64,000 nt of DNA from Heliocybe sulcata. Its lineage: Eukaryota; Basidiomycota; Agaricomycetes; Gloeophyllales; Gloeophyllaceae. The position numbers and the translations under genes were made by a program. A model generated the notes under the pieces. The model was not told where the DNA came from. It searched no databases and worked only from the letters and a program-made list of their open reading frames with translations. The stretch is taken from contig ML213519.1 of assembly GCA_004369045.1 (NCBI GenBank), positions 580,527 through 644,526 of the forward strand, read 5' to 3'. Position 1 is the first letter of the stretch; the number at the start of each line of letters is the position of its first letter. Below are positions 3,643 through 59,559 of the stretch, piece by piece.

Positions 3643-4168
3643 TGCGATTCCTCGAGTGCGATAACCGTGTGTGAGTGAGAGAGGATGGGATGAAGTCTCA
3701 TTTCCCTGCACAAGCTTGTTATATAAAGCCGGGACTGGGCCCATGGTCACCGGTCAGCAGCAAGACTATATAAGGCTGCGATGAACTCACGATACATCTA
3801 ATCCTTCGAGAAATAGAGTTGGCGCCTGCAATTACACGAGGAATCAACGTGCCCTCAGCCCTGCGGGCGCCTCTCTGTGATGCAGGACATGAAAGCCCAG
3901 AACCAGTGCAAGAATGGCAACCTTACCTGTATATATATACGACACCACGGAGGCCTGATAGTGAGCACTGTCCCTGAGCGAATGATCCTTTAACGTGGCG
4001 TCACGCGAGTCAAGCAGGTATGATATCGTTCGAGGTCATACAGGTATGACATGCATTCGTATATAATTGTTTCTCTGTCGTAATGGGTCCAGTACTGTTG
4101 GTAGACATACCATCATATACTCAGGCAAGTAAGCAGATGTAGAGGTCTGCGCGAGCAGTGTCCGACGT

Positions 4169-5160
4169 TCACGTGAACGAGGTCTCTTCAGCAATCTAAA
4201 GACATTCCAAACATCATCATCTATGAGGTCCCAAACGGGAGGGATGATGATACGACGTACCTTCTTGGTCGCAGCATCCACGCTCTGAGCGTAAAGATCA
4301 AGAAACTTCACAAAGTCTTGGTAGGCACGGCTTTTGCAGCCGGGAGAAGTACACGTGGCAGCAGACGAGAGCGCAGACCAGACAATGCCGCCATTTTTAA
4401 CGACATCACCACACGGTCTGTCCTGCAGCAACCTCTTCGCCTCCCTCACGTACCTCCCCCAACAAGTCTTATCGCCTTCATCACCCAACCCTGCTGGAAA
4501 CATCTGTCCGCATGCACCTGTGTGACGGTACTCGCGGAACACGAAGGCATGCTCATTCAGCCATTCGAATGACAGAGAGACGACAGCTTTGGTGCACTTT
4601 TCACGATATTGAGATAGTTGATGCATCGCGCCGCCTGTGATCTCCTCCAGCTCTGGAACATAGTCCAGCAGCGCAGGCTGGCGCAGACTGAAGCGAGCTG
4701 CTTCTCTAGCTTCAGTCTGACGTCCATCCCGGCAAGCGAGAGCGTAGACCAGCAAAGGTTCCCTCGACAGGTACTTCCTGACCTGACGGGACAGTCGAGC
4801 GTCGATGTCTCCCATCTCATACTTCGACGCTGCCTGGCGGACGGACCACAGCTTCCTCAGGTCGTCGAAAACGGGATCGTCTACCGGATAGCAGAACCGT
4901 AAGAGAGGTTCTATGACCCCCGACTCTTCTGCGAGGCTGACTGGATTTTGTGCTGAGCGTTCGGCAACAATCATGCCGCGAAGGACCGGAGATCGGATAC
5001 ACAAGAAAGACTTGTGGACCCGGAATTCGGTACCATCGGACGTGGTAATTGTCAGATCCGGGGCGATAGTGTCGAAGACCGTGATGGGGCTCTGGGAGAG
5101 AACAAGTAATGAGGCCTCGTCATCGGCTGCATCGGTTTCGACATGAGAGGACGCGGCCAT
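4169..5160 (-). CDS. BTB/POZ domain protein, expanded family (copy B)
   Basis: A tandem relative of the BTB gene just downstream, same strand. The protein starts MAASSHVETDAADDE. The BTB segment has SPITVFDTIAPDLTITTSDG, the HKSFLCIRSPVLRGM block and LLRFCYPVDDPVFDDL. The C-terminal region keeps single cysteines where relatives have CxxC (HTGACGQMF; TCTSPGCKS) and then QDFVKFLDLYAQSVDAATKK. Reading straight through the last donor would add about 30 residues with no match in the paralogs. Splicing a 65 bp intron (4260-4196) instead gives IAEETSFT and a stop at 4169, matching copy A. A CATATAG TATA-like site lies near 5230-5241. The function is unknown; protein-protein interaction through the BTB domain is the family expectation. 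Confidence 0.85.
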
Positions 5161-5241
5161 GGCGGTAGAGTGCGGATTGAGAGCGACGTGCCTTCAGAGG
5201 AACTAACGTGGAAAGACGGTGGCGTGACTGGCTATATGAGT

Positions 5242-25127: not shown

Positions 25128-25608
25128 TTCCGACAGGCGCGCAATATTCAATGATCGTTTGGGCGCTAAAGGCACGTGGAGGCATTGCTTGCCATTTCAG
25201 GACGTCAATAAATTTAAAGTTGACTCACCGTTTGATCCTGTAGGCGCATGAGTGGGGTGGTCAAATTTGCAGAATCTCTCCAATAGGCGTATTCTTATTT
25301 TCAGGCTCTCTGAATGTCCTTATGTCCTGAGTCAAATCGGCAATGGGTGACTCAGACCTCCCTTTCTTTCATGGAAGCAAAGCGCCACGGGCTCTTCTTC
25401 CTCTATAGCAGCAGCGTCAACAAAGTCGGTCGGTTACATTCGAGCACCACATTGTGCCGTCACAGCCATTGCACTGCCACTGTCTCCGGCATCGCACTCG
25501 CCTGTGGAGGATGACTCCCTCGGGCAAAGTGAGTCAAAGAACATCGGTGGCATCAACTCGGAGGCGCATCGGGGCTTCCTGAGCGTCTGATCTGAGCGGT
25601 GCACGCGG

Positions 25609-25616
25609 TATTTAAG
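25609..25616 (+). promoter_or_regulatory. TATA-like box of BCS1-like copy 2
   Basis: TATTTAAG in the context GCACGCGGTATTTAAGCTCG, 107-114 bp before the ATG at 25723. The same sequence is conserved in the right arm. Confidence 0.5.
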
Positions 25617-25722
25617 CTCGAGAAAGTTCCGAGGGACACTCACCGGCCTGCAGGCCCTCACCTCCAGCCTGGACAACCCACTCTCACAGTTATTCACCCT
25701 CTCTCTCTCAAAAGTCCTTGGC

Positions 25723-27354
25723 ATGTCGGCCATGGACACGTACACGAACACTACCACCTTCCACTCGGGTATGCGCTCGCCTAATGCCACATCCGCCTCT
25801 CCCCTTCCATCTTTCCCCGGCCTCGGCTTATTCGCATCCATCATGTCAATACCGGGGCTCTTCGACTATGCCAAGCTCATGCTCATGGGAAGCATCATCC
25901 CCCTCGTCCAGCAGGCCGCGTCCTGGGCTCAGGAGCGTGCCATCTCCGCTTTGTTCCTCACCGCTTCCTTTCGAGAAGGCGACCCCGCTTTCGACTGGAT
26001 GATGGTATGGCTCGCGCAACACTCTGCATGGCGCCGTGCGCGCAATGTCGAGATTAGCACGCGCGGGGTGAAAGATGGGCGCTGCGTCTCAGACGATGAC
26101 GCATCGGACACCGGTTCGCGCAAGTTCTCGTACCTCCCTTCTATAAGCGACCAGCACTGGATGTGGTACAAGGGACGTCTCCTGACCGTGTGCCGCTCCA
26201 AGGAGTCGACTGGGTATTATGGTCGCCAGGAAGAAGAGTTGGTCATCCGCATTCTCACCTGGGACCACAAGATCCTTAATACACTTATGTGCGAGGCACA
26301 GGGTATGTGGAAGGAGGGTCAGAGCGGGCAGATCGGCATTCACGCGTCGGACAGCTACAATGACTGGCGGCACGTCGCATCGCGTCCAAAGCGTCCGCTC
26401 AAATCCATCGTCCTGGAACCCGGCGTGAAGGAAGACATTCTTGAGGACGCCCTGGAGTTCCTGGAGAGCAAGGAGTGGTACAACGACCGTGGCATTCCGT
26501 TCCGCCGCGGTTACATGCTCTATGGCGCACCAGGGACGGGCAAGACCAGTCTGATCCAGAGTATCGCGGGAGAGCTCGGTCTGGACGTGTACATCTTGAC
26601 TCTGAGCCGGGCGGGTTTGGATGATACCGCGCTCAGCGAGCTCATTGCCGACCTGCCGGAGAAGTGTATCGCGATTATGGAGGATATCGACGCCGCGTTC
26701 ACCAGCGGTCTCAACCGCGACCTCCCGTCCGCCCCGACATCCAATCCCGACTCTGCTCCTCCGCTCCCGCCCGACGTCCCTCCCCAGGTCCCCAACCAGC
26801 CCGCACAAGACTCGGTAAGCAAGGTGACGCTTAGCGGTCTCCTGAACGCGATCGACGGCGTCGGTGCGCAGGAAGGCCGTATCCTCTTCGCGACGACGAA
26901 CAAGTACCACGCGCTCGACCCGGCTTTGTGCCGGCCTGGACGGATGGACAAGCACGTCGAGTTCAAGCTGGCGAGTCGGTACCAGGCGCGGGAGCTCTTC
27001 CGGGCTTTCTACCAGCCGCGGAGGAAGCCTGCTGACCCGGAGGAGGAGGAGAAGGAGAAGGAGAAGTGGGAGAAGGACAGCGGCTTTGAGGAGAAGCTGG
27101 TGGATAGCTCGACACCGCCTCCATCGCCTCGGAGGAAGTCGAGGAAGCTGGTGGGGCCTGATTTGGGCGAGCAGGAGCTGGGGGAGCTGGCGGCGCGGTT
27201 CGCGGAGGCGGTTCCGGAGCGGGCGTGTTCGATGGCGAGTTTGCAGGGGTACTTGATGCAGTACAAGACGAAGCCGCGTGATGCTTCGGCGAACGTGGCA
27301 CAGTGGATCCTGCACGAATGGGAGGGGAGGAAAAAGGAGACGCCCACTTCATGA
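25723..27354 (+). CDS. BCS1-like AAA ATPase, left-arm copy (copy 2), intronless
   Basis: An uninterrupted 543-codon frame. After the start (MSAMDTYTNTTTFHSGM) comes a Ser/Pro head, a hydrophobic stretch (LFASIMSIPGLFDYAKLMLM) likely to anchor the protein, then the BCS1_N domain (about residues 50-230) with KFSYLPSISDQHWMWYKGRL. Between the domains is WRHVASRPKRPLKSIVLEPG. The AAA core has GYMLYGAPGTGKTSLIQSIA (Walker A), CIAIMEDIDAAF (Walker B) and RILFATTNKYHALDPALCRP with the arginine finger. A Pro-rich insert between Walker B and the finger is unusual. A Glu/Lys run and a PPPSPRRKSRKL segment precede the C-terminal ERACSMASLQGYLMQYKTKP. All ATPase motifs are whole. The other arm holds a near-identical copy, and a third divergent copy at 17.8-19.7 kb has introns. 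Cellular role unknown; mitochondrial membrane location is the family precedent. Confidence 0.93.
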   Translation: MSAMDTYTNTTTFHSGMRSPNATSASPLPSFPGLGLFASIMSIPGLFDYAKLMLMGSIIPLVQQAASWAQERAISALFLTASFREGDPAFDWMMVWLAQHSAWRRARNVEISTRGVKDGRCVSDDDASDTGSRKFSYLPSISDQHWMWYKGRLLTVCRSKESTGYYGRQEEELVIRILTWDHKILNTLMCEAQGMWKEGQSGQIGIHASDSYNDWRHVASRPKRPLKSIVLEPGVKEDILEDALEFLESKEWYNDRGIPFRRGYMLYGAPGTGKTSLIQSIAGELGLDVYILTLSRAGLDDTALSELIADLPEKCIAIMEDIDAAFTSGLNRDLPSAPTSNPDSAPPLPPDVPPQVPNQPAQDSVSKVTLSGLLNAIDGVGAQEGRILFATTNKYHALDPALCRPGRMDKHVEFKLASRYQARELFRAFYQPRRKPADPEEEEKEKEKWEKDSGFEEKLVDSSTPPPSPRRKSRKLVGPDLGEQELGELAARFAEAVPERACSMASLQGYLMQYKTKPRDASANVAQWILHEWEGRKKETPTS

Positions 27355-33585: not shown

Positions 33586-35190
33586 TCATGAACTAGGCGC
33601 CTCCTTTTTCCTCCCCTCCCACTCGTCGAGGATCCACTCCGCCACGTTCGCCGAAGCATCACGCGGCTTCGTCTTGTACTGCATCAAGTACCCCTGCAGA
33701 CTCGCCATCGAACACGCCCGCTCCGGAACCGCCTCCGCAAACCGCGCCGCCAGCTCCCCCAGCTCCTCCTCCCCTAAATCAGGTCCCACGAGCTTCCTCG
33801 ACTTCCTGCGAGGCGACGGAGGCGGCGTCGAGCTATCTACCAGCTTCTCCTCGAAGACGCTGTCCTTCTCCCATTTCTCCTTCTCCTCCTCCTCCTGGTC
33901 AGCAGACTTCCTCTGCGGCTGGTAGAATGCCCGGAAGAGCTCCCGCGCCTGGTACCGACTCGCAAGCTTGAACTCGACGTGCTTGTCCATCCGCCCAGGC
34001 CGGCACAACGCCGGGTCGAGCGCGTGGTACTTGTTCGTCGTCGCGAAGAGGATACGGCCTTCCTGCGCACCGACGCCGTCGATCGCGTTGAGGAGACCGC
34101 TAAGCGTAACCTTGCTTCCCGAGTCTTGTGCAGGCTGGTTGGGACCGTCGGGCGGGAGCGGAGGAGCAGAGTCGGGATTGGATGTCGGGGCGGACGGGAG
34201 GTCGCGGTTGAGACCGCTGGTGAACGCTGCGTCGATATCCTCCATTATCGCGATACACTTCTCCGGCAGGTCCGCAATGAGCTCGCAGAGCGCTGTATCG
34301 TCCAAACCCGCCCGGCTCAGCGTCAAGATGTACACATCCAGACCGAGCTCTCCCGCGATACTCTGAATCAGACTGGTCTTGCCAGTCCCAGGAGCCCCAT
34401 AGAGCATGTAACCGCGGCGGAACGGAATCCCACGGTCGTTGTACCACTCCTTGCTCTCCAGGAACTCCAGGGCGTCCTCAAGAATGTCTTCCTTCACGCC
34501 GGGTTCCAGGACGATGGATTTGAGCGGACGCTTTGGACGCGATGCGACGTGCCGCCAGTCACTGTAGCTATCCGACGCGTGAATGCCGATCTGCCCGCTC
34601 TGACCCTCCTTCCACATACCCTGCGCCTCGCACATGAGTGTATTAAGGATCTTGTGGTCCCAGGTAAGAATGCGGATGACCAACTCTTCTTCGTGGCGAC
34701 CATAATACCCAGTCGACTCCTTCGAGCGGCACACGGTCAGGAGACGTCCTTTGTACCACATCCAGTGCTGGTCGCTTATAGAAGGGAGGTAGGAGAACTT
34801 GCGCGAACCGGTGTCCGACGCGTCATCGTCTGAGACGCAGCGCCCATCTTTTACCCCACGCGTGCTGATCTCGACATTGCGCGCACGGCGCCATGCAGAG
34901 TGCTGCGCGAGCCATACCATCATCCAGTCGAAAGCGGGGTCACCTTCTCGAAAGGAAGCGGTGAGGAACAAGGCGGAGATGGCACGCTCCTGAGCCCAGG
35001 ACGCGGCCTGCTGGACGAGGGGGATGATGCTTCCCATGAGCATCAGCTTGGCATAGTCGAAAAGCCCAGGTATCGACATGATGGATGCGAATAAGCCGAA
35101 GCCGGGGAAAGATGGAAGGGGAGAGGCGGATGTGGCATTAGGCGGGTGCATACCCGAGTGAACGCTGGTGGTGTTCGCGTACGTGTCCAT
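33586..35190 (-). CDS. BCS1-like AAA ATPase, right-arm copy (copy 3), intronless
   Basis: Near-twin of the left-arm gene, with an uninterrupted 534-codon frame from the ATG at 35190 (MDTYANTTSVHSGMHPPN). The frame is open upstream to 35325, but the upstream ATG used by the left copy (MSAM) is changed to ACG here, so this start is three codons later. The motifs are the same: YGAPGTGKTSLIQS, CIAIMEDIDAAF, FATTNKYHALDPALCRPGRM and ACSMASLQGYLMQYKTKP. Differences are few: a 4-residue shortening in the Pro-rich insert (PPLPPDGPNQPAQDS against a longer PPDVPPQVPNQ form), a 2-residue shortening in the Glu/Lys run, and scattered substitutions such as R-H-E for R-Q-E. Both copies look functional, so the pair is either recent or kept alike by gene conversion between inverted arms. 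A TATTTAAG box lies at 35308-35315. Confidence 0.93.
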   Translation of the reverse strand: MDTYANTTSVHSGMHPPNATSASPLPSFPGFGLFASIMSIPGLFDYAKLMLMGSIIPLVQQAASWAQERAISALFLTASFREGDPAFDWMMVWLAQHSAWRRARNVEISTRGVKDGRCVSDDDASDTGSRKFSYLPSISDQHWMWYKGRLLTVCRSKESTGYYGRHEEELVIRILTWDHKILNTLMCEAQGMWKEGQSGQIGIHASDSYSDWRHVASRPKRPLKSIVLEPGVKEDILEDALEFLESKEWYNDRGIPFRRGYMLYGAPGTGKTSLIQSIAGELGLDVYILTLSRAGLDDTALCELIADLPEKCIAIMEDIDAAFTSGLNRDLPSAPTSNPDSAPPLPPDGPNQPAQDSGSKVTLSGLLNAIDGVGAQEGRILFATTNKYHALDPALCRPGRMDKHVEFKLASRYQARELFRAFYQPQRKSADQEEEEKEKWEKDSVFEEKLVDSSTPPPSPRRKSRKLVGPDLGEEELGELAARFAEAVPERACSMASLQGYLMQYKTKPRDASANVAEWILDEWEGRKKEAPSS

Positions 35191-35307
35191 GGCCGACGTG
35201 CCAAGGACGTTTGAGAGGGAAAGGGCGACAAACTGTGAGAGTGGGTTGTCCAGGCTGGAGGTGAGGGCCTGCAGGCCGGTGAGTGTCCCTCGGCCAAATT
35301 TCTCGAG

Positions 35308-35315
35308 CTTAAATA
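35308..35315 (-). promoter_or_regulatory. TATA-like box of BCS1-like copy 3
   Basis: TATTTAAG on the minus strand, 118-125 bp before the ATG at 35190, in the same context as in the left arm. Confidence 0.5.
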
Positions 35316-35989
35316 CCGCGTGCACCGGTCAGATCAGTCTTCCAAGAAGCCCTGACGCGCCTCCGAATCGATGCCATCGATGTTCTTTGACTCACCTTGC
35401 CCGAGGGAGTCATCCTCCACAAACGAGTGCGATGCCGGAGATGGTGGCAGTGCAATGGCTGTGACGGCACAATGCGGTGCTCGAATACAACCGACCGACT
35501 TATTGGCGCTGCTACTGTAGAGCACAACGAGCCGTTGGAGCTTTCGTTCCATGAAAGAAAGGGCGGTCTGAGTCAACCATTGCTGATTTGACTCAGGACA
35601 TAAGGACATTCACAGAGCCTGAAAATAAAAAAGTCCGCCTATTGGATAGATTCTGCAAATAGATACGGCCAGCCAGAATAAGCAGTAAAGTCCAGATGGT
35701 TGACCACCCCACGGATGGATCAAAAGGTGAGTCAACTTCAAATTTATTGACGTCCTGAAATGGCAAGCAATCCCTCCGCGTGCCTTTAGCGCCCAAAGAT
35801 CGCATCGGGAGTGCGCGCCTGTCGGATTATGGATAGCGGTACGGCCCTCTGTCCCCACCATCCAGATTATTCTGCCGTATCTCTTTTTTACAGAAATGTT
35901 CTCTGCCTCTGCATCTCACGACTAACAACACTGGCACATCCCACGGCTTCGGTCCCAGCATGGGAATACGCAGAATGCCCGCACCGATG

Positions 35990-44493: not shown

Positions 44494-45491
44494 CATTTGC
44501 TCACTGGAACCTGACAGTTGCCGCTATCTGATCGCTATTAGCTGGGCAGCATCGTACTTGGAACGAATTTAGTACACACCTGCATTACAGCAGCATCCAC
44601 TCTAGCCGCGAGGAGGCGACTAAAAGCCTGGAGGTCCGCCATCCCTTTACCATTCGTCCGACAGAAGTTGCAGCCCGATACGCTCTGTACGGCTAACATG
44701 AGCGCGCTGGCATTGGTAACGGTCGCCCCGCAGGGCTTCTCCCGAAGCTGTTGCTGCATCGTATTCATGTAAGAGCGCCACCACAACCTAGGTTGCACAT
44801 TTCCATCTCGCAGCTGAACAGTACTGTTATCCGCCGAGCACTGATTGCAACTGAAGAAAGTCCAACTCCTGTCCACCTCTTCGCTCTCCGCTAGCCATGC
44901 AAGACCGACAGCAACAGAACTGGCAGGTCCACCAGCTTTGTCCTTCAGCTCCCATAGTGCACGGGTAGCCGAAGCTGAGATGCTGCTCAGCTCCCGGACG
45001 TTCGGGCCCGGTAGGCCCTTGTAGCACGCATGCATAGCCGCGAGCCTGGTCTCCTCCTCAAAACCATGATAACGAGCGATCGCAAAGACACGCAGAGGCT
45101 CTCTATCCAGGAACGTCTCCGATGCCAGCCTCCTTCGGAGTAGGTCTGTAGCATCTTCCATCTGGTACTTCAGGGCCGCCTCGAGTACCGGTTTCAGCTC
45201 GTCCAAAGTCTCCAGCGATGGGGAAGCGACAGGGTAGACAAACCGCAACAGTTTGTCCAGCACGTCGCTGTCCTCGGTCACTGAAATCACGGTGCGGCTC
45301 TCGGCGCCATCATCACCGTCCTTGGAATCGGTCGTGCGACCCAGGCTCTCGGCTTCGGAGGCGTCGTTGTGCAGAGGGGATGCGATGGCGAGGATGCATT
45401 TGTGAACGCGGAAGTCGATATTGTCGGTAGTGCGGAAGATGAGATCGGAAGATATTCTGTTGAAAGGGGCAGATGCGAGACGCGAAGACAT
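44494..45491 (-). CDS. BTB/POZ domain protein, expanded family (copy E)
   Basis: The start at 45491 gives MSSRLASAPFNRISSDLIFR, then TTDNIDFRVHKCILAIASPL (BTB strand-helix start). An Asp/Glu-rich loop (SKDGDDGAESR) replaces the short loop of other members. TEDSDVLDKLLRFVYPVASP closes the domain. The helical middle has DREPLRVFAIARYHGFEEET. The C-terminal region carries two CxxC pairs, FFSCNQCSADN and SGCNFCRTNG, with WWRSYMNTMQQQLREKPCG between. A 69 bp intron (44579-44511) follows the codon CAG; the short last exon reads VPVSK and stops at 44494. Intact. It lies head to tail with copies D, F and G on the minus strand, which suggests growth by unequal exchange. Confidence 0.88.
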
Positions 45492-45790
45492 TGGTACCTA
45501 GGAATACTGGAAGTAGTTAGGAAAGGAATGCAGAGGCAGGCGAGGCTTATCTGTCATGCAATCGTTAATATATACCCACTCGAGGCTAGCACGTGTAAGC
45601 GGCGATTAAGAATGTAGCAAAACGAGATATGATCGTAGGAAATGACGTGCCCTCGGAAGGCACTTCCTGGGTCACTTTGATATTTCTGTTGCTATCGCTG
45701 CATGCTGGACAGGAGAATAAGCAGGAACGACACGTCCTTGCGTAATCCGCCCAGTCTGATTAGACCCGAACTGCAAGGGCGGCTCCGGCT

Positions 45791-46437: not shown

Positions 46438-47430
46438 TCAGAAAGGCAAGTCTAGAGACACCTAGAGTCCTTGTGGGCCACCGCAGTGCTCTATTAAAGA
46501 GAAACACACCTCCGATATGGCAGCCTCAACTCGCGCCACGAAAACCTCCCTGAGATGCTGACTATCGTGCACTGCAGTAGCGTGACAGTGTGCGCATGAT
46601 GCAGCTTGTTCAAGAAGCTCGCTGTAAATCGGTTGGAGAATAGATGTTGACGGGCACCGAGAAAGAGCGAGGCAGGCTTTCTGAATGAGATCAATGAACC
46701 AGGAATGCACATTTCGTCGCGATGTCTCATTAGTGAAAAGACTGCGTTCAGTCTTCCACCTCGTAGTGTTGCAAAGCAAAGACCTAAGGTCCGGTTGTCG
46801 CGGCAACCAAGGTGCGAAACCTGCATGCGCAGGATCTAGTTTGCTGACAGCTTGCCCGCACTCATGATGATACCGAAGAAGCCGAGCATAACCGTCCGCG
46901 GGGACTAACATGAGGATAGGGCGGGGAGCAAAGAGCTCAGGCTGGCCCAGACGAAGAGCCAGAGTAGCAGCGCTTCTCGCCTCTTCACTGAGTTGATATT
47001 GATACACGATCGCGTAGGCAGTGACAGGGTCCTTATCCATCAACAATGGCAGCATTGCTTGCAGCTGCGACGTCAACCATGCCATGTCGTACTTCCTCGC
47101 GACAGCGAGCAAGGAAAATATATCCGCCATCTCTAGCTGAGGCCTGTCGACAGGGTAGCAGAACCTGAGCAACAACTCCAGCGTGCGACTTTCCTCCGCC
47201 ATCTGCACCACGGACTGCCCTCCGCCCTCTCCCGAAACGGTGGTATCGACTTCATGCGGCAGAGGCAGAGTGAACATCGTCTCGAAGAATGAAGAGGCGA
47301 TAGAGAGGATGGCTTTGTGGACGTGGAAATCGACATGGTCTCGAGAGCGAAGAATCACATCGGCGTTCGGCTTATCGAACGGCGCCGCCGCCACCTTCCG
47401 AGAGAGAGCACATTCGTCCGCGGAGCTCAT
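46438..47430 (-). CDS. BTB/POZ domain protein, expanded family (copy G)
   Basis: I chose the ATG at 47430 (MSSADECALSRKVAAAPFDK), since the upstream open part lacks family similarity. The BTB segment reads PNADVILRSRDHVDFHVHKA, then ILSIASSFFETMFTLPLP, a short Ser/Gly loop, and LLLRFCYPVDRPQLEMADIF. The helical middle has DKDPVTAYAIVYQYQLSEEA. The C-terminal region has SCAHCHATAVHD, the second CxxC; the first pair is reduced to one Cys (SLLCNTTRW). A 48 bp intron (46509-46462) after the codon GAG leads to VSLDLPF and a stop at 46438. Intact; function unknown. Confidence 0.87.
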
Positions 47431-50299
47431 GAGAGGAAGCAAGGGATGACTGAAGACGTGGAGAATTGCTTGAAGAGCGGGCTGCCAAACGTATGCATAT
47501 ATGAGGTGGCGCCGAACATGCGGAGAACACGAGGCGGCTGGAGTCAAGGACCAACGATAACCTTGATAGAGCTCTTGCTGGTACTTGCGTACGTACATCC
47601 AGATAGAGATCCACTGGTCAAGGTGCTTGCAGGGATATCAGTGCTGCATAAAGGCCATATCTGCGATTAAGTTTGATCGTGAGACTCGATAATCAGCATT
47701 GCTCGCGGCTTCTCGCTCGAGTTGAAGCTTGCGCACAGCCGCATCTATGGCAGCATGCTCGAGTCACTATAGCCGCCATAAACAAGACATACTCTGCCGG
47801 CTGACTTCGGAGACGCTTCGAGCGTCCACAGACGTGCAGAGGCAACCGCGCGCAAAAACAGGTGCGGGACACGATATTCATAGGCGGAGGGGGTCATTCC
47901 CGGTAATACGCTGGCCAGACTCCGAAACAGAGCTCAGATCCAGTTCCGTGGCAATCTACGGGGCAGCCATTATTGACTGCGTAATCTCAATGGAGGTTAT
48001 AACTCACCTGGCAGACAGGTTTGTAAGTTTCATTGACGAACTATCTTATGAGATCGCACAGGTGCCTTTACGCGCGTCATCGGATATTCTCATGGAAGGA
48101 GATACCGATGCAGCGCGGGTGCGTTGCGGCGAGAGGATCCAGAATGCAACGAGAAGAGGGCATATCGATCGAAAGAAGATGAAGCGCCGAGCGAGCGGCA
48201 CAGTCTGCCTCCCCTTCAAGTCCACGACGATATGCGAGAGCATATATATGGACCTCGAAAATTCGGTTGACGTCACAAAGGAAAACACGATTTTTCCAGA
48301 TCGGCGAGTCTCCCCAATACTTCGCAGCAGCAATAAATGGAGCCAGGTTTCAAATGGACAGTCGACTAGGGAGAGAGGCACAGCAAGCAGGTGGAAGTTC
48401 CGGGTTTCAGATATCCAGCATGATGGTAGGTGTTTAGAAGCGCTTGGGCCACTAGAACCAAACAGGCCAGTCTCAAGAACTCGGACATCGGGAACGCCAT
48501 TGGGCATACAGGTCCTGGGGCGGCGAGGAAGGTGTAAGACTAGCGCAGCACGAGCCCCGCATCAGGGTCTGCGTTAATATTGGAGATCCTGGGTGCTAGC
48601 GTCCCTGCCAGGTCTACCAAGCCGCGTGTGGTGTCCACAAGCCAACTGGCAGCTAGGATGGCCGACCCGCTCTCTTCGTGGTCTTTGATCCCCAAGTTTG
48701 CAGCACTGGGAGAACACTTTGCTCTCCCACGTCCACCATTCGTCGCCCCTATGCCCCTACTTCCTGAGACCTCGCCATCAAAACCCACGGGACTGTCTGC
48801 CGCTGTCCTGGCCGCTCCACCATCAGCCCCATATGCATCGCCTACGCCTACAGACAACCCATTCGCGCCCCCGCCGCCTCCTCTGTGACGACGTACAGAT
48901 CAGCAAGCGCCCAACTGCCATCGTCGGTAGCCGACTCGTTCAACGGCGTCGGCGAGTTCTTCGACTTCCAGGCCCTTCTCCTGTGCCTGTTGCCAGCGGG
49001 TCGCCCAATGATTCCAGCTTCCATCATCGCCTGATAACGAACTCTACTCCACTCCACTCCCGCACAAGCTCTATTACCAACGCAATGTGTCCCAGATGAC
49101 TTTGTTCCTCGACTTCGCCTCCAACGCCTCCAGTCAAGCCGCCAGACCCGGCGAAACTGCCAACTGTGAAGTCGGCACCGCACATGCTCCATCGCGATCA
49201 TACGACATGCCGACTCTCACCCCAGGGACTTGGAGATCTGCAGCAGGATGTATGCGAACACGATCCAGTAACGAGACCGGCGACGGCGGAGTCCATACTT
49301 GGCATGTCGGCAGCTCGTACGCGATACTAATGCGGGACATTGCCAGACATAACATAGCCATGCGGGTGAATGGCGACCAACAGAACTTGGTCGACGTGAC
49401 GTATTTCAGGCTACGATGTTGCACATAATCAAATTCTACTCCTATTTTGAAGCAAATGCGAACGTACGTCGATAGAATTGAACAGCTTGCTGTCCTATGC
49501 TTCCGCACATTCCGATGCGTCTTCAGCATTGCGTAATCCAATATGCGCAATCGAGTGGTTTGGTGTTGACTATTGAACCTTTGTCGGGCATTCAGCGATG
49601 TTATGATCCATTGTTGAGACGGACGCACCTGATTGTTCGCAAAGGAGCCGTGCGAAGAAGCAAGAAAGTCCGGAGGTGTCATTCACAAAGGCGCTTCTAG
49701 GGCAGCCATTACGATACCGTTTGAGTCTGTATGCTGCAGCGCCGGATCATGGCGTGGTGGGGACGAAGCGGATCTTCCAGGGTCGTCATTCATGGATGCA
49801 GTACCGACGTTTTGGCGAGCGAAAGAGAAGTGCCACTCCTTCAGGTGGGTTCACAGACCCTGTCTCGGTACGTGTATGCGGAACGAAGTTCGCAACCGCG
49901 GTGCCTAAAAACTGGGTTAATGGCAACACCCACGATGCAAGGAAGATTGAACGAACTGTTTTTCCAGTGTCCCTTTTCCTTGCCCGTCAAGGCTGCTTTA
50001 TTCATGTCGAGTTCAGAGTCCACTCAGTCAAGACGAATCGGTCCTTGTGGTTGAGGATTGAAGAGTACGTTCTGGTGCGGGTCTGCTTGGGTGTCTACGG
50101 CGGCGGGCAAATGCTGAAATATGGGCGTCGGAACGAATGCGCCGAATTTCTTGGGTTGCGAGCATGATATGTTGTCTGATGTCGGATGGAGAACGATGCG
50201 GATATGGGGGCCTTTCGTGATTCTAGTGGGCGTGCATGCTCGCGGTGCAGAGGCAAAGAGAGTTGCCGGCGGCTCGTTGGCGCTCTGCCTTGAAAGAAT
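47431..50299. other. Gene-poor stretch with a possible gene remnant
   Basis: Between the BTB cluster and the NLR no whole gene can be supported. A plus-strand frame from 48544 to 48888 reads gene-like (QLAARMADPLSSWSLIPKFA; then a Pro-rich part). Similar composition continues one base out of phase (ASSVTTYRSASAQLPSSVAD, FNGVGEFFDFQ) to about 49030, as in a broken gene. Frames at 49.1-50.2 kb lack motifs. I recognise no family. Confidence 0.35.
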
Positions 50300-51575: not shown

Positions 51576-54500
51576 ATGCCACCAAAGAAGGCCGACCGGG
51601 GTATAGCAGCGCTGGCGAGAGCCACAAGCACGCTAGCTCTTCAGCCAATCGCGGGATCTTTGACGACATCCTGGAATGAGGGTCTGGAAAAGGCAGACAG
51701 AACCAGATCAGCTGCGATTGCTTCAACGATAATGAAAGATGCACTGACCGTGGTCGCAAGCCTGGCGGATGGCGGCGTGAACGTGCCTTTCTTGAAGGGA
51801 TCGGCGCAGATCGCCGTGCAACTTATCGACGCCGCTCAGGTCTCATCACCAGCCTTCTTATCCTTGAGTGTATGCAAAACTGACGATCTTGGGATGTCAG
51901 CTTGTCAAGAACAACCAGGACGACTGCAGGGATGTGGCGAGACTGGCCGCGGAGACCGTGCTCCATCTAGCAGATGCTGTGAAAGGCCGAGACCCCGAAA
52001 GTATAGACGAGAGACTCAAGGCGGAAATCCTGAGATTCGAGAAGTAAGTGCTTCGCCTGTTCTCAATGTTCCCCGATCTAAATTGCCTATCACATTCCTC
52101 CAAGAAAACTCCAGGAAATCTATGAAGGGGTGAACAAGCTCACACATGCAAAATTCTATACACGTGCTGCTACCCGAACTATGGACCAGGCTATGATCAA
52201 TGGCTGGAAGGCTGAAATGGACCATGCTCACAGGCAATTTTTGGTATGTCATTCCGGGACAGTCTTACAGTTGTATCCCAGCTCAGTTTGGCATAGCGTG
52301 GAGTTCTCGTGGATCTTGCTGCAGGCAAAGTGGAGGTCAAGACTGAACTGGGCCAGCTGAGTAACACTATGGATACCATGAGGGGGCAGATATCAGGGAT
52401 ACATGGCATTGTCATGCAGACTTTACCTAGGCAAGATTTGGTATGTTTATTCAGTGCTTTGGCTTTCTTTTACATAAGTCCTTACTCCCTCCACAGGCAA
52501 AGACCAAGTATGTATGTATAATTAGCCACTGTAACTATGAGCTGACATGCTTGGAAGTATTTTTCTGAGCAGGACTCCACCTCCCAAGCCATCCATCTTC
52601 TGTGGAAGAGATCAGGAGACCTCTGATGCAGTCCATCTTCTGACATCAAAGGCTATCTCTCAGCCGAACCTTGCTATTCTTGGCTCAGGTGGTATGGGAA
52701 AGACAAGCCTTGCTCTGACTATCCTCCATCATGCAGCAGTCAAGGCTCATTTCAAGGACCAGGTGTACTTTGTACCCTGTGAATCAGCTCAGAGCACTGA
52801 GCAACTGGTCTATCATATTGCCACTGTCCTTCCATTCAAGAAACAGGAGGAGGATATCTTGACAAGCATAGACTCATTTCTTCACAGAAGCTCAAGGCTA
52901 CTGCTCATCCTGGATAATTTTGAAACTCCATATTACCAAGCAAAAATGGAGGAGTCAACACTTGAAGTCCTCAAGAGGATGACTAGTATTCCAGGGGTGT
53001 CTCTTATCTTGACAATGAGAGCCAGTACTGCACCTCATGGTATCCAGTGGGATAGAAGCATCTTGCTGCATGGATTACCTATGGAAGCTTCAAGACAAGC
53101 TTTTCTGGGTACAAGCCATTCTTCCTCAGAACAAACAGTGATAGATCAGCTGTTGAAGGAGCTAGATGGTGTTCCACTTGCTATCAAGCTTATATCCAAT
53201 TTGGCCCAACTTGATTCACCAGCAAATCTCCTCAAGGAGTGGCAAGAGAGAAAGACTGCAATGCTAGCAGAGCCTGGAAGGGGCAGGCTGGAGAATATTG
53301 AAGTCTCTATAGAGCTATCCTTGCAGGCTACAGTTGTGCAAGATTGTCAAGATGCAATACCACTTCTGGCACTTATAGCACATCTGCCAGATGGCTTGCT
53401 ACAAGCAAAAGATACACTGGAGAAAAAGGCACCATATATCTATCTTGGACCTGCAGCAAGGAGGGCCTTGAAACAGGCAGCTCTAATGGATGACTCAGGA
53501 GAGCAGATGAATATCCTATCTCCAGTCAGGCACTATATTTGCAAGAAATATCCTCTGGATGCTCCTGGCAGAGAAGCTCTTGAAGACTATTATGAAGCAC
53601 TCATTGGCAAATATAACCAGGAATGCTACACCAGTATCAATGACACTTTGCTATTGGAAAGTAGCAATATTATTGCTATAATAAAGCAGGCATGCTCCTG
53701 TGGCAAGGTCAGCACAAAAGTAGCACAAATGGCATACAAGATGTCATGGTTCCTACTCTTCTATAGACCCACCATAGAGCTACTGGATGCCATTCAGCAT
53801 GCAGCTCCAGAAGGGATGGACCAGAAATTTCAAGCACAGTGCCTGTATCTGGCTGTATTGAATCTATACATGCAAAATGACTATCTTAATGCTGCACAGA
53901 TCTCTACTCAAGCCAGGGAGCAGTTTAAAGCCATTGGAGATCAACTAGGAGCTGCTCAGTGCCAGCAGAGCCTTGGAAACATTCTGCGGATGCAAGACAG
54001 ATATGAGGAAGCCAGAGGTCAACTTGAGGAAGCCAGGGAGCAGTTTAGAGCCATTGGAAATCAACTGGGAGCTGCTCAGTGCCAGCGGAGCCTTGGAGAC
54101 ATTCTGCAGATGCAAGCCAGATATGAGGAAGCCAGAAGCCAACTTGAGGAAGCCAGGGAGCAGTTCAGAGCCATTGGAAATCAATTGGGAGCTGCTCAGT
54201 GCCAGCGGAGCCTTGGAAACATTCTGCGGATGCAAGACAGATATGAGGAAGCCAGAGGTCAACTTGAGGAAGCCAGGGAGCAGTTTAGAGCCATTGGAGA
54301 TCCACTGGGAGCTGCTCAGTGCCAACAGAGCCTTGGAAACATTCTGCAGATGCAAGCCAGATATGAGGAAGCCAGACGTCAACTTGATGAAGCCAGGGAG
54401 CAGTTTAGAGCCATTGGAAATCAACTGGGAGCTGTTCAGTGCCAGCAGAGCCTTGGAAACATTCTGCGGATGCAAGCCAGATATGAGGAAGCCAGAGGCC

Positions 54501-54917
54501 AACTTGAGGAAGCCNNNNNNNNNNNNNNNNNNNNNNNNNNNNNNNNNNNNNNNNNNNNNNNNNNNNNNNNNNNNNNNNNNNNNNNNNNNNNNNNNNNNNN
54601 NNNNNNNNNNNNNNNNNNNNNNNNNNNNNNNNNNNNNNNNNNNNNNNNNNNNNNNNNNNNNNNNNNNNNNNNNNNNNNNNNNNNNNNNNNNNNNNNNNNN
54701 NNNNNNNNNNNNNNNNNNNNNNNNNNNNNNNNNNNNNNNNNNNNNNNNNNNNNNNNNNNNNNNNNNNNNATTGGGAGCTGCTCAGTGCCAGCAGACCCTT
54801 GGGGACATTCTGCAGATGCAAGCCAGATATGAGGAAGCCAGAGGCCAACTTGAGGAAGCCAGGGGGCAGTTCAGAGCCATTTGTAAGCCTGGTGGCTTAC
54901 TAGGTTCCCATAACTAA
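51576..54917 (+). CDS. NLR-type receptor: N-terminal helical domain, NB-ARC ATPase, TPR repeats (3' part broken by gap)
   Basis: A STAND/NOD-like protein of the kind linked to non-self recognition and regulated cell death in fungi. Exons 51576-51839, 51901-52043, 52105-52243, 52297-52440, 52497-52507 and 52573 on join in phase, including an 11 bp micro-exon. Residues 1 to about 200 are all helical (IAALARATSTLALQPIAGSL; FLKGSAQIAVQLIDAAQ), resembling the MLKL-type four-helix domain of basidiomycete NLRs. NB-ARC follows: P-loop LAILGSGGMGKTSLALTIL (about residues 267-285), Walker B RLLLILDNFE, LTMRAS and the GVPLAIKLI motif. TPR units of 40 residues (LGAAQCQQSLGNILRMQDRY) run into a 255 N gap. 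Past the gap they continue in another phase, since the gap length is an estimate, and an inserted element ends the frame at 54917. An in-frame ATG at 51432 is an alternative start. The gene is AT-richer than its neighbours. Confidence 0.88.
53948..54514 (+). repeat. Near-identical 120 bp units coding TPR repeats
   Basis: Units begin at GGAGCTGCTCAGTGCC near 53948, 54068, 54188, 54308 and 54428 (one copy has GTTCAG). They differ by only a few bases each, so they are much more alike than ordinary TPRs. Differences cluster at D/A in MQDRY or MQARY, at R/S in EARGQ or EARSQ, and at N/D in AIGNQ or AIGDQ. One more unit follows the gap at 54770. Confidence 0.95.
54515..54769. other. Assembly gap (255 N) within the TPR tract
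   Basis: The run of N lies between identical repeat units, the expected place for a short-read assembly to fail. The true number of units is unknown. Confidence 0.99.
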
Positions 54918-55010
54918 CATATATACCAGTGAGTGGCTGAGATACCAGTTCTCAGTTATACTGCCTTTTGGTGTAATGGTTAAAGCGTCACTGGTCTTGA
55001 CCCTCTTACA
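54882..55010. mobile_element. Short 129 bp inserted element with 5 bp target-site duplication
   Basis: The ends are TGTAAG and CTTACA, perfect inverted 6-mers with TG..CA termini. The flanks are CCATT on both sides (54877-54881 and 55011-55015). Removing one CCATT and the element restores a normal TPR unit boundary (GCCATTGGACATCAACTGG), so the insertion is clear. It contains a box-A-like TGGTGTAATGGTTAAAGC. It has no coding capacity. It could be a MITE or a small solo LTR; the family is unknown. The high similarity of flanking repeats suggests a fairly recent event. Confidence 0.75.
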
Positions 55011-55105
55011 CCATTGGACATCAACTGGAAGCTGCTCAATGCCAGCAGAGCCTTGGTATCATCCTACAGATTCAGGAGGGATCTGATGAAGGCCAACTAA
55101 GATGA
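55011..55105 (+). pseudogene. TPR unit of the NLR cut off by the insertion
   Basis: The sequence resumes with GGACATCAACTGGAAGCTGC and translates as GHQLEAAQCQQSLGIILQIQ, then EGSDEGQLR and a stop. This is a diverged last TPR unit and probably the original end of the NLR reading frame before the insertion. Confidence 0.7.
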
Positions 55106-55225
55106 GTGGATCTGCATTATTGATTGGAGTTATGGTTAGCCCTCCTAGGTCTCTGTGTTTCACTGGTTGACCTCTGTAAATTTACAGTTGGTTACAACCA
55201 CCTTTCATCTGCTATACTCTGTCTG

Positions 55226-55990
55226 TCATAGTCCATTGGATACAACCAGACACCCATAATTCAACCCGCACAATGCAGTGAAAGCTCCCATCTGACAAGC
55301 TTCAGGTACATCCTCTCTCCATTTCTCTGCCTCATGCAGTGGACCCTCCTTGACAACCATCTTCACCACTGTTGCATCACATTGTTCATGCTGCTCCCTG
55401 CTGGCACTATTTGAGATGTGCATGATTGTGTGAATGCTCATCCTGAGGCTAGTCATCAGATTCTAAGTACAATGAATTGTTTCAGGCAACAAGTCAGCAA
55501 CAAGTCAGCCTATAAAATTGTTTGTCAATGTAATGCTGTCTGTACACTTTGTCTTGCATGATACTCATTCTGAACTCCCTCACCTCACACTCCAGACAGT
55601 CTCATGCAATCAAAACCTGCAACAGCTTCTATCATAGGATCTTTGCTGGACTTCATATGCTTGAAGGTATTCATTTGATGGACAGTGCCCTCTTGTCGCA
55701 ATGAAACTGTGAAGAAGACCTCCTCTGTAGGGTCTTATGCTAGACAGGATATAGAATGTGGGAGGTGGAAGGTAGTGAGGAGTGTTTGGGAGCTTGATCC
55801 CTAGAACTCCAAATAAAAATGATCAGAGGGACAGACAAAAGTTGCATAGCATACAATGAATACCTTGACAATATGGCCAGTGGAACTCATAGGAATTCTG
55901 CACCTCGGGAAGGGCCCTACTACGTCACAGTGCAGGTCAGTGATGGGCAGGGTATGATTGCTCAGTGTGCGATATGGCACGGCGAATCAG
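55226..55990 (-). other. Possible decayed gene, not recognised
   Basis: Three short minus-strand frames look coding: SNHTLPITDLHCDVVGPFPR (about 55960), DPTEEVFFTVSLRQEGTVHQ with MNTFKHMKSSKDP (about 55720), and MTSLRMSIHTIMHISNSASR to ALCGLNYGCLVVSNGL (55456-55226). Donor-like GT sites follow the first two. No domain is recognised, and the pieces may belong to one gene or to a transposon remnant. Confidence 0.3.
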
Positions 55991-56002
55991 TCTGCTAGTT
56001 AT

Positions 56003-56269
56003 TGTAAGGGCTACCTTAACAACCAGTGAGCTGGCAAGGCTGCACGTTGTTGAAGGGAGTTCCAAAGCAGATATATACACTCATAAGCACTAGATACATC
56101 CACTAATGATATCTAAGGGCTTACCTGCACGTTGTTGAAGGGAGTTCCAAAGAGGAACAGGTTAAAGAACCCTTCAACAAGTGCAAAACACAAAGTGGCC
56201 GCACCGCGTGACACGTGACGTCACGTCACGGTGGCTGAAAGCGAAGGTGGCTGAAGGGGAGCCCTTACA
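56003..56269. mobile_element. 267 bp element with 10 bp inverted ends and 5 bp target-site duplication
   Basis: It starts TGTAAGGGCT and ends AGCCCTTACA, a perfect 10 bp inverted pair. GTTAT flanks both sides (55998-56002 and 56270-56274). Inside, the 20 bp run CACGTTGTTGAAGGGAGTTC plus neighbours occurs twice (about 56040 and 56127), and the right end holds a TGACGTCA palindrome. TG..CA ends and a 5 bp duplication suit a solo LTR, but a MITE is possible. Non-coding and apparently whole. Confidence 0.75.
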
Positions 56270-56735: not shown

Positions 56736-58948
56736 ATGGCATCTAGAGGGACAGTCCCTAGTCGTCCCCACTATATCCCAGTGGATAAATGGGCACTGTT
56801 GGATACATCAGCCCAGTTAGCCCTTTCTGAACCTCCGGCTATCCCATTAAATGACCTACCTGGACTGGGTACTAGAATCCACAATGCATATATGGATGGC
56901 CCTCAAGGTGACCCATATTCAGCATCTTCTGATCTCATACCCGAGGTTACAGACAAGTCAGTCCAATTAATCATGCTGATCACTGTGTCAACTCACCAAT
57001 TTACGTGCATATATCCAGCACTGAGCAGCCAAAACAACCGAAAAGGAAGTGGCAAATGCAAGATACTACTGACTCCGACCACGACTATGGATACAGACCT
57101 AAGAAGGTTCAGAGCGCACGTAACACAAAGCAGAAGGTTGCCGACATCACTGTGACATCTGTTGATGGATCACAGAATATGCAGCCAGATGCATATGGGA
57201 AGACAGTCGGCGCAGCAAGGATCGAGAATGCTCCTAGAAACGGTCGTCAGCCAAACAGGTGCTCGACGTGGAAGGCAAAGCAGAAACAGCCCCCGTTGTC
57301 AGTGAACAGTAGCATATACGTACACATTACCACTGATCTTGGTGTTTTCCAATAGATCGAGACGTTCTGAGTCTCCGATACCGGTCTCTGAGCTCCTCCA
57401 GCAGACGAAAGCGTAAGTCAAGCATAGCATATATCTACAGATCGTGAGCCAGCTTACATCGATTTTTTAGTGGTCCAGACACCGGTAACTCCAACACCGA
57501 TGATGCTGACCCGGACCAGATGCTCCGGGAGGTCTTGAAGCACCAGAACAAGATGGAGAAGGAAATTCAGACCCTTCGGAAGCAAGTTGCCAGTAATCAA
57601 ACCATCGCTGCAAGTACAGCAAGTCAGAGCCATGCTGATAACACCAGACGCGCACATCGCCAGATTCGCGAACACGAGAAGAGACTCGAGGCCCGCAAGG
57701 ACAAGAACACAAGCGGTGCCGATGACGAGGAGGCTGACAATGAAGGAAGCAAGGACAAACTTGATGACCAGCATTGGGACGAGCTCTTGAAAGCTCCGTA
57801 ACATCTTTCCCCGCCGCTCAGAAGCGCAAAAGCGCTGTTAAATGTCAGTAAATTACATAGACCTGCCTGACTTGCCGTCAGCACCTCGAAATCAGTGCCT
57901 TCCGTATGCTCTGTGGTGTTGGCGTAAAGGAGAAGTGGCCTGAAGTAGGCGAACTGCAGATTAATGAGAAGACAAACCAACCATATTTCACACCCAACTT
58001 TGACCAGTGGGTAAATCACCCAGTAAATGCTACCATATGCCGATGAGTAGCAGATTCTGTTATGGCTGAACTTGAGGTAAGTGATATTAACCGGTATTCC
58101 TCACTGGAAGTGTACTTACATTGATACAGGCCGCAGAGCAGCTGCCCAATGACCTTCGACACTCATCTGTACACTTCAATCGGAAGATGATTGAATGGAT
58201 GGCAAAGGAAACCTTCCGCAGCTTCAAGGCCCAGGCTGCAAGGGAACGAGACGAAGTTAAAATGGCAAAACAGCTCGAAAATGAGAGAAATACACGCCGC
58301 CATAATCACCGGACAACAGTTTGCTTAATCTCTCTTCTGCGAGGTGGTTGCTGACACTGTTTCCCAGAAACTGAAGCATCTCTGGCTAGGAGCTAAGCTT
58401 TAGGCGAAGCTGCATGGCGTAGATCCGATGCCGCTCCTGGAAAATATTGACATTGTATCAGACTACGCATCAGGACCCGAAGATGAAGACAAGGAAAGCA
58501 AAGCAGACTGGAAGCGGCACATGGCAATCAATCTTGGCTACGACCTGAATGCGATGGACCCACTCGAGTGGAAGGCGTTCAAGGTCTGGGAATGTATCAG
58601 ACCTTCGTGGCACTCACACGAGGTAAGCTGTGGTTGATTCCAGATAGAATGAATTCACTGACCTGGGGCGTTGAGTTCGAGTGGCTTCTGGAAGACATCA
58701 TGGGCCTTTACCTGAATTCCCTCTCAGAGAGGGATCTGTCCCGGTTTGGTCCTAAGCGCTTTCACGCCAGCACCCGGTGGAATGAGAGGCCACCTATCCA
58801 TGTTCCTTGGGACTTCACCATACAGCGCGGGTACTACAAAGAATTCCAAGACAGCTGGGAATTTCTTATGCAGCAATGGTATACAAGAGGTGATCCAGAA
58901 GGGTTTGGAAAGAACACACCTCAGCCTGAGGATGAGACTTCTGGCTAG
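56736..58948 (+). CDS. Uncharacterised multi-exon protein of a transposon-rich zone
   Basis: Not recognised as a known enzyme. A start at 56736 (MASRGTVPSRPHYIPVDKWA) leads through charged exons: QPKRKWQMQDTTDSDHDYGY, SGPDTGNSNTDDADPDQMLR with a coiled-coil KMEKEIQTLRKQV, then AEQLPNDLRHSSVHFNRKMI and EMAKQLENER-type helices. Next are GVDPMPLLENIDIVSDYASG, PLEWKAFKVWE, and WGVEFEWLLEDIMGLYLNSL with WNERPPIHVPWDFTIQ and WYTRGDPEGFG at the end. I recall similar Trp/Gly-Asp-Pro-rich C-termini in many unnamed agaricomycete proteins near transposons. Several joins lack a clean frame (about 57.80-58.12 and 58.35-58.43 kb), so the gene may be decayed. It runs opposite to the transposase and could be its accessory gene or an independent passenger. 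Confidence 0.5.
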
Positions 58949-59000
58949 ATTGGCTGCTTCCTCTTGGGCTCTGGCTAGATTGGCTGCTTCCTCTTGGGCT
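58941..59000. repeat. Perfect 30 bp tandem duplication
   Basis: The unit starts CTGGCTAGATTGGCTGCTTC and ends CTCTTGGGCT, twice head to tail. It overlaps the stop codon of the plus-strand gene, and the second copy also carries a stop. Confidence 0.9.
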
Positions 59001-59559
59001 CTGGCAACATTAGCTCGACGTCCTTCCTGTCTTCGGTATCTATGCCCTCTTGATGTGACTCGGAACGAGACTTCCTCCTGCTAATACCATTCAGTAATGC
59101 TCGACTCTTTGTTCTTCTTGATACTGGTGCTCCCGTGCTTGTCCAATCGCTATCCTTCATCCAGTCAAATCACACTGCCAATACTTGCTTCGTACTCAGC
59201 GGCGTGGTCTCGATTGACTTGTAGAGGTCTGTAATCGTGATTGGGGGACACCTGTCCAATAGCAAATGTAATTTTCAGTAAGAAGCAATAGAGAGCATTT
59301 GAACGCAATGACAGGCGATGATAACACCGGCGAATGGGCTGTACGGTACGCAACAAAACACTATCAAGCACTGTCTAACAACATGTCTATAATCGCATGC
59401 TGCCGTGGGTTGTAACGAGGATGAGTATACGCTAACAGATGAGGGAAGAGGACTCACTCTTTCCATTGTCGTCGTAATCCATACGCGAGGCTTCATGTCT
59501 CGGTATTCACCTCTAGAGAGCTGGCACTAAATAGACGAAAATGGGACGATGATGGGTGG
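59001..59559. other. Spacer inside the transposon zone
   Basis: Short frames only. No terminal inverted repeat of the transposase element could be found here. Confidence 0.4.

Follow-up and report, generated by a model that had tools for sequence, protein, structure and literature searches.

Fungal nucleotide-binding oligomerization domain (NOD)-like receptors (NLRs) are thought to change their repertoires by repeat exchange and selection, and repeat-induced point mutation (RIP) has been proposed as a mutation source in ascomycetes. An NLR gene of the basidiomycete Heliocybe sulcata, which starts at position 51576 of a 64,000-nucleotide stretch of contig ML213519.1 (hereafter, the window), raises the question of how nearly identical repeat units come to differ at only a few codons. 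An earlier note, made from the sequence alone, had described the gene as an NLR with homogenised tetratricopeptide repeat (TPR) units of 40 residues and an MLKL-type helical N-terminus; its observation was partly confirmed and its interpretation partly supported by the analysis reported here. The note had overlooked three features described below: a run of N in the repeat tract, a multicopy insert and a loss of CpG. The genome searched comprised 31.6 Mb in 51 contigs, with the window gene on the contig labelled C17 and its paralogs on C8 and C19. The window gene is an ordinary member of a known fungal receptor class, whereas its CpG footprint is not ordinary. We consider it probable that a joint explanation applies, in which an NLR with homogenised C17 units has undergone methyl-CpG decay of its gene body, and in which this decay has supplied part of the variation at the ligand contacts.

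Domain architecture of the receptor family

In the window gene, Pfam searches detected NACHT (44.2 bits; cut-off, 26.7), NB-ARC (33.8 bits; cut-off, 23.5) and TPR_12 (95.4 bits; cut-off, 30.1), all above their cut-offs, so that the assignment to the NLRs was borne out, with NACHT as the NOD and TPR_12 as the C-terminal repeats of a fungal NLR. The gene is on the + strand, and our six-exon model contains 881 open codons up to a run of N. Exon 1 (51576-51839) carries the start codon, an N-terminal extension and the first part of an MLKL-like helical domain, and its edge was matched in C8 and C19. Exons 2 (51901-52043) and 3 (52105-52243) belong to the MLKL-like domain, CpG loss beginning in the latter, and exon 4 (52297-52440) encodes a helical linker. 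The 11-base exon 5 (52497-52507) is present in the model only and has the same length in the C8 paralog; exon 6, which extends from 52573 to the N run (54514), encodes the NACHT/NB-ARC module and the TPR tract. By sequence comparison, the C8 paralog could be spliced at places matching the window-gene exons, and the C19 paralog at those of exons 1-3.

In the genome search, the receptor family was represented by three genes: that of the window, the C8 paralog (76% NOD identity) and the C19 paralog (45%). NB-ARC matches occurred solely at these three loci, and NACHT matches were also found on C15 and at three further places on C17. With 52.2 bits, NACHT scored highest genome-wide at L023 (C15:372500-373024), in a gene whose CpG content is normal. 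Exon 6 matched nine NCBIfam families, all far under cut-off, and these sub-cut-off matches were bacterial TPR proteins. When contiguous exon 6 was modelled with AlphaFold together with the two paralogs, the mean predicted local distance difference test (pLDDT) score was 68.7. The TPR part formed regular helix pairs, with block-mean pLDDT values of 83-96 from exon 6 residue 421 onward, and the best PDB match of the model was 6mfv, a signal transduction ATPase with numerous domains (STAND) protein with TPRs (E 6.0e-10), followed by LGN TPR domains. The structural evidence has two weak points, namely a poorly modelled NOD part and a superposition on 6mfv that was weak overall (template modelling score, 0.34).

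The N-terminus likely belongs to the MLKL superfamily, an indirect placement that depends on a related gene elsewhere in the genome. This relative (L032, C30:48170-48379), found in the genome search with 30% identity and E 0.003, passed the Pfam MLKL_N cut-off of 27 with 30.5 bits, and it aligned with the three NLR N-termini with an hhalign probability of 97.7% over 126 columns. By our own reading, two intron positions and their phases agree between the relative and the window gene. The N-terminal domain of the C19 paralog scored 14.3 bits for MLKL_N, under the cut-off. When a profile was built from the three NLRs and two C30 relatives, the first six PDB matches were MLKL N-terminal structures (best E 1.9e-5). 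The second C30 relative (L031, C30:75374-75676) gave no MLKL_N match, and no NACHT was found on C30 among the matches listed. The MLKL-like N-terminal domains of L032 and L031 are approximately 27 kb apart and have normal CpG content.

Several results argue against this placement. The window domain itself matched no Pfam family, MLKL_N included, at E-values up to 10, and its sequence alone found neither MLKL nor anything relevant in the PDB; similarly, no NCBIfam family matched the N-terminus. The profile of the three NLRs did not find MLKL in the PDB, and when the C30:48170 relative was omitted from the larger profile, MLKL appeared at E about 1, at ranks 12-16. A gene on C4 passed MLKL_N at 38.4 bits, but its comparison with this set gave a weak result (36%). 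The earlier description of the N-terminus as MLKL-type is thus supported indirectly, by way of the C30 relative and not by a direct Pfam match. In basidiomycete NLRs, about 600 N-termini with MLKL-like sequences have been counted, and their models carry an additional helix at the N-terminal end (Wojciechowski et al. 2022, PMC9815663). The window gene resembles these BaMLKL NLRs in having an MLKL-related helical N-terminus before the NOD, and NACHT-TPR architectures of this kind were reported in Agaricomycetes; it differs in that its domain is under Pfam detection, and CpG content is not mentioned in the portion of that account drawn on here (PMC9815663).

Homogenised repeat units and their ligand-contact positions

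Tandem Repeats Finder reported a period of 120 with 5.0 copies and 92% matches at 53910-54514. In frame, the TPR units on the + strand (53954-54514) comprise four complete 120-bp units, starting at 53954, 54074, 54194 and 54314, and a partial fifth (54434). The four complete units share a mean of 94.3% nucleotide identity (92.5-97.5%, 6 pairs) and 87.9% amino acid identity, and their amino acid differences are located at 11 of the 40 unit positions, as expected from the claim that the 120-bp units are nearly alike and change on a few codons. Mean nucleotide identity was 0.851 among the C8 units (six units, 15 pairs) and 0.777 between C17 and C8 units (24 pairs); the C19 units have diverged (0.450; ten units, 45 pairs). 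The proportion of synonymous differences (pS) between units was 0.087 within C17, 0.25 within C8 and 0.44 between C17 and C8, and the C17 and C8 NOD regions showed a pS of 0.29, a synonymous substitution rate (dS) of 0.37 and a ratio of nonsynonymous to synonymous rates (dN/dS) of 0.35. Comparison of the C17 unit pS (0.087) with that of the NOD regions (0.29) indicates that the C17 units were homogenised well after the genes split, either by exchange or by fresh tandem duplication. Homogenised units, as first proposed, were therefore found in the window gene (0.943 identity). Against a family-wide process, the C8 unit pS (0.25) is close to that of the NOD split, so that recent homogenisation is clear in C17 only.

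The non-singleton two-state sites of the C17 units are positions 5, 9, 12 and 15, and three of their six pairs (5/9, 5/12 and 5/15) show all four combinations; the six C17 units carry six different residue sets at 5/9/12/15. At positions 5, 9, 12, 22, 36 and 37, the same residue alternatives were seen in C17 and C8 despite the unit pS of 0.44. In a set of fungal NLRs, high internal conservation, defined as more than 85% identity over at least 100 aa, was found in 21.2% of the TPR-type repeats (Dyrka et al. 2014, PMC4986451). Judged without the program of that paper, the C17 units belong to this class (mean, 87.9% aa over four 40-aa units; lowest pair, 82.5%), and the C8 units (75.2% aa) fall short of it. 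The window gene shares with the NLRs of that study its near-identical TPR units and the variable residues on the concave face; it differs in that an N run cuts the tract and the gene body is nearly CpG-free, and here one genome only is concerned (PMC4986451).

The N run (54515-54769; 255 N), an assembly gap or a withheld stretch, lies inside the repeat tract. The next unit behind it starts at 54780, 265 bases past the start of the run, and a 120-base register would require this distance to be 39+120k; the length of the run is thus an estimate only, and the number of units in the tract is not given by the assembly. The tract of the C8 paralog is likewise interrupted by 120 N. That run (L012 5611-5730) is exactly one unit long and may be an estimated gap. 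The N runs in both tracts, with the C17 run out of register, are what would be expected if the repeat number and some of the homogeneity were assembly artefacts in a tract that reads did not span. We regard this as improbable, because the sequenced units differ at fixed sites and have distinct residue sets, which a simple collapse would not yield, and because a tract of the same kind is present in C8.

The most variable positions of TPRs are 2, 5, 9, 12, 13, 33 and 34, and the ligand contacts of HOP are at positions 2, 5, 6, 9, 12 and 13 (Magliery and Regan, PMC1261162). The HOP contact set, which came from the same paper but was tested after the first test, exceeded randomly drawn sets of positions in variability (p 0.013 in C17, 0.003 in C8 and 0.002 in both). 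For the helix-A positions 2, 5, 9, 12 and 13, a set chosen post hoc after the data had been seen, p was 0.021 in C17 and 0.0003 in C8. Groove positions of the C8 units had a dN/dS of 3.22 compared with 0.26 elsewhere in the units; in C17, the proportion of nonsynonymous differences (pN) in the groove was 0.106 with zero synonymous change, and dN/dS elsewhere was 0.40. Unit variation is concentrated at TPR ligand-contact positions, on the concave face as in the NLR class, and variable and selected sites have been placed on the concave side of Podospora TPRs (Dyrka et al., PMC4986451). Position 22, which is not a contact site, was variable in both C17 and C8.

The evidence on the groove is not uniform. 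The seven-position groove set gave p 0.085 in C17, which alone is not significant, 0.013 in C8 and 0.017 in both, and with six core positions removed from the null the values were 0.143, 0.024 and 0.034, respectively. Positions 33 and 34 were invariant, and whole-unit dN/dS was below 1 (0.62 in C17 and 0.44 in C8). Groove variability was also significant in the diverged C19 units (p 0.010) and is a general TPR property (PMC1261162); accordingly, it is no proof of immune function. The same data bear on the alternative that repeat exchange and positive selection on concave-face residues, as in the Podospora NLRs, account for the variable codons, with CpG loss unrelated to them. The excess over random position sets, the elevated dN/dS of the C8 groove and the exclusively nonsynonymous change in the C17 groove speak for this alternative, as does the concave-face placement described for Podospora TPR NLRs (PMC4986451).

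CpG loss in the gene body and CpGs remaining at contact codons

Exon 6 contained 7 CpGs in C17, 11 in C8 and 9 in the C19 stretch, against 107.8, 124.5 and 148.5 expected from base composition. With the background codon usage of six other open reading frames (ORFs) of the window, the same proteins would carry 135, 139 and 185 CpGs, respectively, and the coding frames have 7, 11 and 8. In exon 6, CA reached 1.47-1.57 and TG 1.28-1.38 of expectation, compared with 1.06 and 1.05 in the first 50 kb, and all four CpG differences in the aligned C17 and C8 NOD regions were CG versus TG or CA. CpG loss with an excess of TpG and CpA is what would be expected of a methylation and deamination target, similar to that of RIP or of methylation induced premeiotically (MIP). 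A point against decay as the sole cause is that AG (1.38-1.47) and CT (1.24-1.48) were in excess too, so that the composition of exon 6 is not explained by CpG decay alone.

In C17, CpG counts were normal in exons 1 (23 of 21.5 expected) and 2 (10 of 10.7), dropped in exon 3 (2 of 7.1), and remained low 3′ of the gene to about 55.7 kb. C8 had a normal count in exon 1 (19 of 20.8) and about half of the expected number in exon 2 (4 of 8.4); in C19, the loss began only behind exon 3, exons 1-3 being normal. Depletion in C8 and C19 stopped near the stop codon, with values of about 1.0 beyond on both sides. These boundaries, together with the paralog comparison, bear on a different origin of the composition, namely that exon 6 descends from a CpG-poor source, having been transferred horizontally or captured as an intronless NOD-TPR gene, or that codon preference shaped it. 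Exon 6 is long, intronless and CpG-poor in all three paralogs, unlike exon 1, and both the AG and CT excess and the sub-cut-off matches to bacterial TPR proteins would fit such an origin. We nevertheless give it a low probability: the loss reaches exons 3-4 and, in C17, sequence 3′ of the gene, the CG differences between paralogs are four of four against TG or CA, and transposon-like DNA of the genome is likewise depleted.

An observed/expected CpG ratio below 0.4 was found in eight of the 128 non-overlapping 500-bp bins of the window, all within a depleted block at 52001-56000, and in 1 of 60 windows from 20 samples of 1.5 kb spaced over the genome. The sole CpG-poor stretch among those samples was L056 (C16:200001-201500), at 0.38 overall. 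Around copies of a 129-bp multicopy insert that also interrupts the window gene, most windows were at 0-0.4 on C28, C21 and C6; on C20, 6 of 10 windows were below 0.3 and the others normal, and on C2, 2 of 6 readable windows were low. Transposon-like surroundings in the same genome are therefore CpG-depleted as well. C5-methyltransferase domains are encoded in the genome, as PF00145 matched above its cut-off six times, on C1, C3, C17 and C19. We infer from these sequence patterns that the gene body underwent long-standing methyl-CpG decay while the frame stayed open.

Two simpler accounts of the loss were rejected. CpG loss is not a trait of all NACHT-, TPR- or MLKL-type genes of this genome, because such loci (L001, L022, L023, L024, L031, L032 and L037) had overall values of 0.87-1.03; L024 had one edge window at 0.33 despite its normal overall value. 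Spread from a neighbouring transposon as the sole cause was discarded, since CpG is normal on either side of the C8 and C19 paralogs. CpG-type decay of basidiomycete transposons has been ascribed to deamination following methylation, in which a Masc2-like methyltransferase is implicated (Amselem et al. 2015, PMC4352252). The CpG-specific C-to-T signature is shared with that case; there it concerns transposable elements, and here a receptor gene family (PMC4352252). Among the literature matches listed, no title or abstract opening reported CpG loss or methylation in fungal NLR genes.

The few CpGs that remain in the repeats are unevenly placed. Arginine codons at contact positions 5 and 12 account for 10 of the 14 CpGs in the C17 and C8 units; all ten arginines at these positions are encoded by CGN, whereas 31 of the 33 elsewhere in the units are encoded by AGA or AGG. 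Where the units have another codon at 5 or 12, it is mostly CAG or CAA, and in C8 also TGG at 5; CpG deamination yields all three, but not AAG (at 5) or CTA (at 12), which also occur in C8. Codon 12 always ends in G in C17 and in A in C8, so the two genes probably acquired the Arg/Gln alternative independently. Two points restrain a mutational reading: the unit codon counts carry no valid p-value because the units are copies of one another, and contact position 9 varies without any CpG. Mutation bias alone was rejected as a full account because of position 9, and selection alone because of the CpG-decay pattern at codons 5 and 12.

Two causes would fit this pattern, namely old arginine codons that are decaying, or repeated selected gain of arginine in a decaying background. 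Part of the variable codons may thus be CpG decay, and CpG loss offers a mutational cause for them. For repeat exchange and selection with CpG loss unrelated, position 9, not being a CpG site, is a further argument; the alternatives at 5 and 12, mostly CGG or CGA versus CAG or CAA with TGG at 5 in C8, in a region purged of CpG, speak against it. We rate that alternative a serious possibility, somewhat short of an even chance. For the WD40 receptors of Podospora, RIP has been proposed to add to the supply of mutations, even though the WD repeats themselves showed no strong RIP (Paoletti et al. 2007, PMC1805685). The present family resembles the Podospora NWD/HNWD genes in its concerted repeats, its selected contacts and a genome-defence mutation proposed as supply (PMC1805685; Chevanne et al. 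2010, PMC2873952). RIP in Podospora is mainly of the CpA type, and it marks two pseudogenes strongly, their WD repeats excepted (PMC1805685, PMC2873952); here, CpG loss extends over three genes whose frames are open over long stretches, and their repeats are affected too.

In the joint explanation that we favour, the concave face of the TPR superhelix would bind a ligand, upon which the NACHT/NB-ARC module would oligomerise and the MLKL-type N-terminal domain would attack a membrane and kill the cell, as is suggested by what is known of the family. From the sequence pattern, the units appear to have been homogenised after the C17/C8 split, with a few contact residues reassorted among them. The body, from about exon 3 to the end, would have been CpG-methylated like transposon DNA, deamination removing CpGs while selection kept the frame open. 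CpG decay would turn the remaining CGG and CGA arginine codons at 5 and 12 into codons for Gln or Trp, and repeat exchange would spread the changes. A bolder version, which we think quite unlikely, is that the fungus treats NLR bodies as methylated transposon-like DNA and that the receptors exploit decay at codons 5 and 12, together with repeat exchange, to diversify, like the hypermutation hotspots of antibody contact loops. The strong CpG footprint on an NLR family with long open frames, located mostly in the gene body and common to the three members found, would, if methylation is confirmed, link genome defence to receptor diversification. It also calls for caution, because variable repeat codons can mimic positive selection where part of the change is CpG decay.

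The multicopy insert and other features of the window

Behind the N run, the repeat frame (54770-54917, + strand) contains one more unit from 54780 and then a stop codon (54915-54917) inside the 129-bp insert (54882-55010). The insert has the ends TGTAAG...CTTACA and is flanked on both sides by the 5-bp duplication CCATT; given the TG...CA ends and the duplication, it may be a solo long terminal repeat (LTR) or a terminal-repeat retrotransposon in miniature (TRIM). The remnant behind it (55011-55105, + strand) consists of a last degenerate unit and a tail resembling that of the C8 paralog. The extent first given for the gene, 51576-55105, was consequently right at its start, which fits the six-exon model with splice sites matched in C8, and not at its end, since 55105 is the last base of a TGA (55103-55105) behind the insert and the unspliced repeat frame stops within it.

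Copies of the insert were found at C28:122008-122136 (100% identity), C21:181561-181689 (98%), C20:179069-179198 (92%), C6:1365604-1365908 (97%) and C2:296756-296850 (partial); the C6 copy is split by another insert, and the C2 copy adjoins an N run. Four of the five full-length copies, the window copy and the interrupted C6 copy included, have a perfect 5-bp duplication, and that of C20 has a mismatch. The identity of the C28 copy suggests that insertion into the window gene was recent. By eye, sequence at approximately 56000-56190 (and L020) looks similar to the element inserted into the C6 copy.

Because of the insert, the C17 gene has lost the tail present in C8, and the window copy may therefore be decaying or losing function. 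If it were a silenced, decaying pseudogene, its repeats would say little about such a receptor; an insert that stops the frame before the C8-type tail, transposon-like CpG loss over the body and an insertion that looks recent would all be consistent with this. We judge it rather unlikely, as 881 codons are open before the N run, the C17/C8 NOD dN/dS is 0.35, and the CpG loss is also seen in C8 and C19, which have open frames and lack the insert.

Elsewhere in the window, four of the ten ORFs scanned carried BTB/POZ domains, at 2752-3753, 4039-5193, 44541-45497 and 46465-47637 (−). Two BCS1-type AAA ATPases of near-equal length are encoded in opposite orientation at 25591-27351 (+) and 33589-35328 (−), and a perfect 30-bp tandem repeat with 2.2 copies is located at 58940-59005.

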